The notes beneath the pieces were generated by a model. The model searched no databases and was not told where the DNA came from. It saw only the letters and a program-made list of their open reading frames with translations. Shown here in pieces: positions 2,102 to 3,375 of a stretch of 64,000 bases of DNA. A program made the position numbers and the translations under genes. The stretch comes from Thalassotalea euphylliae (GTDB lineage Bacteria; Pseudomonadota; Gammaproteobacteria; Enterobacterales; Alteromonadaceae), in the NCBI RefSeq assembly GCF_003390395.1, contig NZ_QUOV01000001.1, forward strand, positions 2,356,001 to 2,420,000, written 5' to 3'. Numbering within the stretch: position 1 is the first letter of the stretch; the number at the start of each line of letters is the position of its first letter.

Positions 2102-2221
2102 TTAATTTCCCTTTAAATTTATAGTGATAAGAAGGTGTCAGTCAAAACAGCTGAACTGCATTGTCCTTTTGAGTAACTTGTATGGATAATTACCCACCTA
2201 AATAACCATTTTCGGTAAAGT

Positions 2222-2395
2222 GAGACCCAAGCCTTAGCGGCAACTAAGGCCTTCTTTTACAGTAGTTCGATTGATTAATGGCTCCTCAATTGAGAGACCG
2301 GTAACAAGAACGAACGCTGTAAAAGACTCCAAGCAACATACTCGAATAGTCTACTGGGTCTCGAACCCGCATTATGCAAGCAAGGGTTAGCTTAT
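2222..2395 (+). ncRNA. Candidate IS110 bridge RNA
   Basis: The noncoding left end folds by eye into three parts. (1) A 5' stem-loop, GCCTTAG 2231-2237 with CTAAGGC 2244-2250. (2) A target-binding loop closed by 2254-2262/2317-2325 (9 bp) and 2265-2269/2311-2315 (5 bp); it carries TTGATTAA (2271-2278) on the 5' side and TAACAAGA (2302-2309) on the 3' side, with an apical CTCAATTGAG (2285-2294). (3) A donor-binding loop closed by 2331-2337/2386-2393 with one bulge, carrying ATAGTCT (2346-2352) and TTATGCAAG (2372-2380) around a GGGT/ACCC hairpin (2356-2359/2365-2368). GAGACCC (2222-2228) could alternatively pair with GGGTCTC (2356-2362). The RNA would end just before the recombinase ATG at 2397. 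The order 5' stem, target loop, donor loop is that described for IS621-type elements. Confidence 0.75.
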
Positions 2396-2396
2396 T

Positions 2397-3353
2397 ATGA
2401 AAACAGTCATCAATCAAAAGATTCACGTTGGGGTTGATACAGGTAAATACCAACTGGATGTTTACCTTCGTCCTTTGGACATTTACTTCACCGTCACCAA
2501 TGACGAAAAAGGGATTACAGAGGCCATAAATCAGCTCAAGCAATACCCGATTGAACGCATCGTTATTGAAGCGACAGGACGGTTAGAAATGCCCTTTATT
2601 ATGGCGTGTGCGAATAGTAAACTTCCCTTTGTTATCGCCAATCCTATTCACATCAAACGCTTTGCTGGTGCGATTGGGCAACGGGCTAAAACGGACAAAC
2701 TTGATGCGCAGCTTATCGCCCACTATGGGGAAGTGATTAAACCAGCACTATCACAACTCAAACCAAGCATCATGCAGGCCATGAGTGATTTGGTCGCCAG
2801 AAGAAATCAGTTACTTGTGATGCAAACGATGGAAAAGAACCGCCTTCAATCCCTACCGAAAAGCTTGTCGATGACGATAAAACCAATACTCACCGCGTTT
2901 AAACATCAAATCCTAAAAATTGAAAAAAAGCTCGTTGAACTCATCGAGTCTTGTCCTGAATACCAGGCGAAAAATACGATTCTGCAAAGCATGACAGGTA
3001 TTGGCAAGATAGCGGCAGCGTCAATCATCTGTAATTTACCCGAGCTTGGCTATGTGACGGGTAAACAAGCGAGCAGCCTAGTTGGTGTTGCGCCGATGAA
3101 TCGAGAAAGTGGCCGTTATAAAGGGCAACGGAGAATCCAAGGTGGGCGGCACCAAGTACGCACGGTGTTATATATGGCCATGCTGTCAGCTATTCAAAGT
3201 AATCCCGTGTTTAAAGACACCTATCAACGATTAGTCGTTGCAGGCAAACCTAAAAAAGTGGCGATTATTGCCTGTATCAGAAAGATGGTGGTGATATTAA
3301 ATTCGATGCTCAGAGACGGAGTAATGTGGGAAGCGCCAAGGGCTAAAAGTTAG
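2397..3353 (+). CDS. IS110-family recombinase (DEDD transposase)
   Basis: RNA-guided recombinase of 318 residues, complete. The N-terminal RuvC-like (DEDD_Tnp_IS110) domain shows D14 ([12 protein letters not shown]), E58 (IVIEATG), D100 and D103 ([13 protein letters not shown]), all four acidic residues of the family. After a helical middle, the C-terminal Transposase_20 domain has a helix-hairpin-helix ([13 protein letters not shown], about 199-211) and [12 protein letters not shown], whose S238 fits the catalytic serine position. In this family the protein binds the bridge RNA and exchanges strands at a dinucleotide core without classic target duplication or terminal repeats. No frameshift is seen and the noncoding RNA is upstream, as in the IS110 rather than the IS1111 group. 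Confidence 0.95.
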
Positions 3354-3375
3354 CTATTGACGCCATAGTCTCTTG

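Follow-up and report, generated by a model that had tools for sequence, protein, structure and literature searches.

A bridge-RNA-guided IS110 element very probably inserted in the end of an integron attC site of Thalassotalea euphylliae

Positions 2177-3373 of the window (the 64,000-nucleotide stretch of Thalassotalea euphylliae DNA analysed here) very probably hold an IS621-type IS110 insertion sequence that sits in the R''-proximal end of an integron attC site and would move by a bridge-RNA-guided cycle. The first-pass annotation had already recognised an IS110 element of the IS621 type, with its ends and its target set by the guides of a bridge RNA, and this central claim held. It overlooked what the target is: by motif and gene context, usually the R'' end of integron attC sites.

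Recombinase, relatives and element ends

The plus strand of the element encodes an IS110 recombinase of 318 aa (2397-3353) with the Pfam domains PF01548 and PF02371, both above cut-off. Its PDB matches are IS621 and ISCro4 only, with IS621 the best (E=1.5e-29), and residues D14, E58, D100, D103 and S238 (numbers counted by hand) align with the five catalytic residues of IS621. The protein combines a DEDD RuvC-like N-terminal domain with a C-terminal domain that carries the conserved Ser, and excerpts of PMC11187229 give a length of about 315-330 aa for recombinases of the IS621 branch of the IS110 group. Upstream of the ORF lies a 220-nt leader, and just 18 nt separate the stop codon from the last base of the element.

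Relatives were collected by scanning species-representative genomes, with the best 80 of 172 kept (66-88% identity over the best segment); these come from Shewanella, Pseudoalteromonas, Alteromonas, Colwellia, Vibrio, Photobacterium and their kin. In the host's family, 38 of 295 genomes, the host included, match at E<=1e-100. Parsing of both ends and of the target loop succeeded in 57 of the 81 loci formed by the 80 relatives and the window, leaving 24 unparsed. Sixty further stretches (58 from family-search genomes, representing part of the matches of that search, and two plasmids of 39 records) contributed 62 matches, with 55 parsed and 7 dropped. Removal of 12 duplicates left 100 unique insertion sites, told apart by the 40 bases to the left or the 12 to the right of the element. 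For the analysis of covariation, five repeated signatures were removed from the 57 parsed loci, which gave 52 distinct copies. The parsed copies at the 100 unique sites share their ends, as the annotation had demanded of other copies; since parsing needs recognisable ends, this holds for parsed copies only. Among the unparsed loci, L153 and L154 (G001, a genome of the same genus; transposase 96% identical) do not have their right end at the expected place, and L158 is a partial copy from G006, a second genome of the genus.

At its left end the element has a core CT (2177-2178) and then the right donor TGTATGG (RD, 2179-2185), which forms the left tip. RD is invariant in the 33 aligned of the 52 distinct copies, the aligned rows having been chosen with TGTATGG as anchor. 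The right tip is the left donor ATAGTCT (LD, 3365-3371), followed by the right core CT (3372-3373). The annotation had given the extent as 2177..3371; its left end stands, whereas the right core has to be shifted rightwards by 2 nt.

This correction comes from relatives and from unoccupied sibling sites. The occupied sites of relatives read LT-NT-TGTATGG at the left junction, where LT is the left target, and ATAGTC[T/G/A/C]-[C/T]T-TGTTA at the right. Of 54 testable loci, 17 have empty repeats within a few kb that are homologous to the two flanks once joined, with the insertion point inside the match. These 17 loci are other than the window, and their junctions read [C/T]T-TGTTA with one exception, TATTA (L007). 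Examples are AACCA-CT-TGTTA (L019, twice), GCGC-CT-TGTTAGCT (L009) and GATGCA-TT-TGTTAT (L079, three times), all of which fit a one-core joint exactly; the empty sites of L046 and L044 are about one spacer nt off such a joint. Of 146 other genomes, 25 contain a stretch of 22-67 nt that matches the window's own flanks, joined with a single CT, across the junction; query and genome lengths are equal in 38 of the 46 junction matches listed. Together, the unoccupied sibling sites and the one-core joint place the right core of the window at 3372-3373. It follows that TCTTGTTA (3371-3378) consists of the seventh LD base (LD7, T), the core (CT) and the right target (RT, TGTTA), and that ATAGTCT is the left donor with the core excluded. 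An alternative scheme, in which the elements fell into two classes by target core (CT or CG) and ended in ATAGTC, was rejected on the sibling-site evidence.

The core is of the NT type: its second base is T on both sides in 57/57 parsed copies, its first base is a pyrimidine (C or T) on the right and unrestricted on the left, and the sibling empty sites indicate no duplication beyond it. LD7, the last base of the element before the right core, is T at 61, G at 23, A at 15 and C at 1 of the 100 unique sites. It equals position 7 of the left donor guide (LDG) in 97/98 copies, with T, G, A and C types represented; in this count, as in the hairpin energies below, one alignment row stands in place of the window. 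The handshake position of the right target guide (RTG) meets LD7 in most copies, the AACAAGT Vibrio type (L038-L040, L044, L058, L068) being the exception. The same geometry is described for IS621 in excerpts of PMC11208158.

Bridge RNA, guides and their targets

The annotation had folded the left end into a 5' stem-loop, a target loop and a donor loop, and the 33 aligned leaders (of 52 distinct) support this architecture. In them 97.8% of cells are paired and 11 pairs have double changes; the double-change cells number 68, versus 17.3 in shuffles (0/500) and 4-8 in slid versions. A pair-type measure is weak and not decisive (29 versus 26.1 in shuffles; 32/500). Support is strong for the 5' stem-loop (2231-2250; 97.8% of cells paired, 4/7 pairs changed on both sides) and for the stem (2257-2268/2312-2322; changes on both sides in 6/11 pairs) of the target-binding loop (2257-2322). 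It is absent for the apical hairpin of that loop (2280-2299), which is uninformative because it never varies. For the donor-binding loop (2325-2388; stem 2325-2329/2384-2388, apical hairpin 2356-2359/2365-2368) support is modest, with 95.8% and 99.2% of cells paired and double changes in 1/9 pairs only. The window's leader folds better than its shuffles (z=-3.6). An outer stem from RNAalifold (59-66/194-201) competes with the donor-loop apical hairpin and was set aside, because the variable pair of the hairpin changes on both sides. A long upstream non-coding region that encodes a two-loop bridge RNA is thus present, as in the IS621 branch. The Rfam scan of 1800-3900 returned a single sub-threshold plant miRNA match (3762-3892), which has no bearing on the element.

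Four guides can be read in the loops. The left target guide (LTG) TTGATTAA (2271-2278) matches LT, TTGAGTAA (2169-2176), on the L''/spacer side of attC at 7/8 positions. RTG, made up of TAACA, core AG and handshake base A (2302-2309), is complementary to 3371-3378 at 8/8, and LDG ATAGTCT (2346-2352) equals LD at 7/7. The right donor guide (RDG) TTATGCAAG (2372-2380) pairs with 2177-2185 by 6 Watson-Crick and 3 G-U pairs. On inspection, every stretch quoted in the annotation and all four of these counts proved correct, and two of its interpretations shift with the right core. LDG does equal 3365-3371, but this right end does not include the core CT; RTG keeps its full complementarity, the pair at base 3371, the last of the element itself, being reread as a handshake. 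In mononucleotide shuffles of the 220-nt leader, chance gives an LTG of at least 7/8 in 10.5%, an RTG of 8/8 in 0.7% and an LDG of 7/7 in 1.7%, and all three in order in 0/200,000. The LTG match is weak when taken alone; the guide set as a whole is not.

Across the parsed copies, LTG, RTG and LDG each co-vary with the sequences they face, which is the behaviour that the annotation had asked of true guides. In the 52 distinct copies LTG matches its own LT at 5.77/7 positions, compared to 4.32 when permuted (0/5000) and 4.52 when permuted within LD7 classes (0/5000). RTG fits LD7, core and RT at 7.71/8, versus 6.73 permuted (0/5000; within class 17/5000), and the five RT bases alone at 4.83/5 versus 4.75 (6/5000). 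For LDG against LD the values are 6.96/7 and 6.35 (0/5000; within class 2/5000). Since relatives share history, each copy was also swapped with its nearest relative carrying another guide. The copy's own LTG won in 66 of 82 pairs, lost in 4 and tied in 12; for RTG against core and RT, its own won in 93 of 94, lost in none and tied in one. Because swap pairs share members, sign-test p-values from these counts are too small.

Copies at unusual sites are particularly informative. TGTTA is missing at 6 of the 100 unique sites, and RTG follows the site in three of them (L006, L060, L207). The RTG of L006 has TAATAAGA for TCTTATTA, matching at 8/8, and its LTG, CTAACAG, is equal to LT; the RTG of L060 has TAACGAAC for GTTCGTTA, again at 8/8. 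At L207 (G253:C3:602200-606200; 59% identity), RTG fits the non-TGTTA site at 7/8 and LTG TTGCTTA equals LT (7/7), and this copy appears to be a natural case of retargeting. L063 has an extra T at its site and a perfect LTG, and L064 retains TGTTA next to an unusual LT that its own LTG matches at 7/7. The right flanks of L011 and L042 depart from TGTTA and RTG does not follow, with the LTG of L042 still at 6/7; these two mismatches are consistent with off-target insertion or with later change of the flank. G001 and G006, of the same genus as the host and 96-97% identical in the transposase, hold four parsed copies with the window's LTG at four other sites, all CT-TGTTA. L157 carries the window's LT; at L152, L155 and L156 the window's LTG matches 5/7 only.

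The register of LTG is variable. In 32/52 copies its best fit is displaced by one nt away from the core relative to IS621, and in 19 it fits directly at the core, with one tie; the shift occurs within the same guide types. The LTG bases at the core are CT in 19/52 copies, and LTG is perfect in 12/52.

The attC end as the usual target

The core is followed by TGTTA at 94 of the 100 unique parsed sites. On the other strand, TGTTA and the core read TAACA-AG or TAACA-AA, the start of an attC; the published Vibrio anguillarum attC consensus starts TAACAAACG (excerpts of PMC4572688). The window's right target, TGTTATG (3374-3380), has the reverse complement CATAACA, an attC R'' end. Gene context points the same way. 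Leaving out three of the 57 loci with short right flanks, a minus-strand ORF of at least 60 aa ends no more than 60 nt from the right junction at 39/54 loci, in 18 of them with its stop inside TAAC, compared to plus-strand ORFs starting at the junction at 2/54. On the left, an R'-like motif occurs in 35/98 flanks (shuffles: mean 6.2, maximum 14; reverse strand: 7), and this simple motif is absent at the other 63. When the sites are joined, hairpins below -12 kcal/mol that are closed at R''/R' number 26/93 versus 4.4 in shuffles, and closed hairpins of any kind below this energy number 29 versus 18.5. Complementarity between the right-flank heptamer and the copy's own left-flank heptamer is at the permuted level (5.66 versus 5.65) and lends attC no support. 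In cassette arrays such complementarity is not expected, the outermost bases of R' being part of the cassette that follows. The frequency of TGTTA and the sibling repeats indicate that attC is targeted, as it is by the IS1111-attC group, though most sites are without a simple R' motif.

The surroundings of the window fit this picture in part. A 113-aa cassette-like ORF on the minus strand (3376-3717) has its TAA stop inside the attC R'' box, and an 83-aa minus-strand ORF without a Pfam match (1850-2101) lies across the interrupted attC as the next cassette-like gene. The window's own attC is incomplete, with no recognisable R' in the left flank. Beyond about 30 nt, that flank (2102-2160) resembles an IS end (AGGTGTC...GAACT-CATTGTCC), which suggests that a second IS truncated the attC. 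Look-alike ends lie beside transposase genes, IS3-like by eye, next to the host's integron integrase gene (G000:C1 around 1901059 and 1904611; L172). The integrase gene itself, intI, is at C1:1905157 (444 bits against a cut-off of 265), with attC-like sites recognised by eye on its left. One of them, G000:C1:1901557, is empty and shares 21 nt, GTCCTTTTGAGTAACTTGTTA, with the joined site of the window. A strict attC pattern, RYYYAAC...GTTRRRY, gave no convincing array over 124 kb around the window. The region is IS-rich, given a DDE transposase (PF01609; window 76-1095) 1 kb left of the element. Elsewhere in the window, four near-identical 108-nt repeats (43417-44022) are, by eye, an ordinary tandem tRNA-Asn (GTT) cluster.

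The host genome holds one full copy of the element. The second host match, 37 nt at C1:2322665, is a right-end remnant with its flank, adjoining a cassette-like ORF. The ORF, of 148 aa (L002:1057-1503), has this remnant (L002:1501-1537; G000:C1:2322665-2322701) in its attC R'' (GCCTAACA) and, at its opposite end, GTTAGGC adjoining a second, different IS110/IS1111-type transposase frame (L002:1-960; by eye). The latter is apparently identical, over the shared 320 aa, to a frame at L172:7032-8072. Located both near the intI array and near the remnant, this second transposase may belong to another attC-associated IS.

Could the association with attC arise without any choice of attC by the element? 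If the element had been captured in cassettes or arrays and spread by cassette shuffling, its attC flanks would simply be inherited. The copies do lie among cassette-like ORFs, copies in one genome can share LT (L024-L028 in Alteromonas gracilis), and one annotated plasmid stretch carries the element, although without attC annotation. We nevertheless give passive spread almost no credence, because the 100 sites differ in the bases beside the element, because the guides track their flanks even when set against the nearest relatives, and because unusual sites are matched by the copies' own guides (RTG at L006, L060 and L207; LTG at L006, L063, L064 and L207). It is also very improbable that the recombinase recognises a folded attC bottom strand in the manner of the integron integrase, the RNA contributing chiefly at the core. 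The excess of R''/R'-closed hairpins over shuffles speaks for such recognition. Against it, most sites, the window's included, have no R' partner by these tests and yet use the same base, and the guides of IS621 pair with both strands of duplex target DNA, according to excerpts of PMC11208158.

A different objection is that the target may be only NT-TGTTA with loose pairing on the left, so that enrichment for attC would be a by-product of a motif common in attC ends. The core and the five RT bases are indeed the most constant part of the sites, and the scarcity of perfect LTGs and their one-nt shifts are compatible with loose pairing. We consider this unlikely, since 39/54 loci have a cassette-like ORF of one orientation terminating at the junction and LTG-LT covariation is strong. 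In mechanism, it differs little from our preferred reading, in which guides read an attC end.

Proposed cycle and known systems

When the tips are joined with one core, the circle junction reads TTGAC[AG]-N17-GATAAT in 54/57 copies, and the remaining three are without an exact GATAAT. In the window, the -35-like TTGACG (3357-3362) comes from the right end and the -10-like GATAAT (2185-2190) from the left end, both on the plus strand; this promoter is predicted from sequence. The ends, core, RNA helices, guide/target covariation and usual attC target found here can be placed in a cycle whose circle, RNA expression and strand exchange are modelled on work with IS621 and ISEc21. The recombinase would excise a circle that keeps one core, ATAGTCT-CT-TGTATGG. 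At the circle junction a sigma-70-like promoter, TTGACG-N17-GATAAT, would form and drive the bridge RNA. The donor-binding loop would then hold the circle ends and the target-binding loop the attC, with LTG pairing to L''/spacer and RTG to core, TGTTA and handshake base. Strand exchange by the DEDD/Ser recombinase at the NT core would yield insertion without duplication, in one orientation relative to the cassette gene. The window copy may still be mobile, as suggested by its intact ORF with catalytic residues, its intact predicted promoter and the presence of copies at several sites in same-genus relatives with 96-97% identical transposase; its being the single full copy in the genome argues against this.

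Hosts of this clade include bacteria with chromosomal integrons. We tentatively raise the possibility, while regarding it as somewhat doubtful, that marine Gammaproteobacteria harbour a bridge-RNA clade specialised on attC that re-tunes LTG to the attC family of its current host. Examples would be the guides TTAATTT in Alteromonas gracilis and TTGATGC in Aliivibrio (L079), the latter identical to three empty sibling repeats. If the idea is correct, natural selection keeps reprogramming an RNA-guided recombinase so that it tracks a recombination site that evolves fast. Any two attC ends would then be potential substrates, and so the elements could delete or invert cassettes, or freeze them in place, with no need of the integron integrase. 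An insertion breaks up the attC and may by this alone freeze or rearrange cassettes. The 100 unique sites also form a large natural set of guides and insertion sites, a few retargeted members included, from which rules of programmability might be drawn directly, for instance on tolerated cores, on shifts of register by one nt and on handshake bases.

Among the literature matches listed, which covered few subscription papers, there was no IS110-group clade that targets attC. Class C-attC elements, which are group II introns, have no IS110 recombinase. One of them, S.ma.I2, is an unrelated mobile element that also inserts at attC (excerpts of PMC9229058). The same excerpts of this survey of Shewanella integrons record IS110 elements in arrays and report no IS interrupting an attC; such insertions may have been overlooked. 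The element links two recombination systems, the attC being a known home of IS1111 elements and class C-attC introns and, here, of a clade of the IS110 group.

The closest likeness is to IS621, in the homology and catalytic residues of the recombinase and in a two-loop RNA (target and donor) that lies upstream of the gene. As far as excerpts of PMC11208160 and PMC11208158 describe it, IS621 also shares the NT core with nearly invariant second T, the handshake bases, and the split of the promoter between the ends (-35 right, -10 left). IS621 targets the E. coli REP, in contrast to the attC R'' end that is usual here. The RTG of the present clade matches five bases after the core and the four-base RTG of IS621 two; LT fits 8 nt from the core in 32/52 copies and 7 in IS621; and a further difference is the freedom of the first core base, which is limited to C or T only on the right. 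The IS1111-attC group (ISKpn4, ISPst6, ISPa25) resembles our clade in targeting one attC end with the guidance of an RNA from a non-coding region, as outlined in excerpts of PMC11187229. These also indicate that the IS1111 RNA is usually downstream of the transposase gene and accompanied by subterminal inverted repeats, whereas the RNA here is upstream. ISEc21, of the IS110 group, is described in the same excerpts as having an upstream RNA with the bottom-strand guide 5' to the top-strand guide, insertion without duplication and a circle with a promoter (the last, in our clade, read from sequence alone); its transposase is longer (358 aa) and its target lies inside IS3-family transposase genes. 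The mechanism is already known from IS110/IS621 and ISEc21, and attC targeting from IS1111 elements. The main interest of the element is that it represents a clade aimed at integron attC, with guides that follow their sites, rather than that its guides can be read as such.
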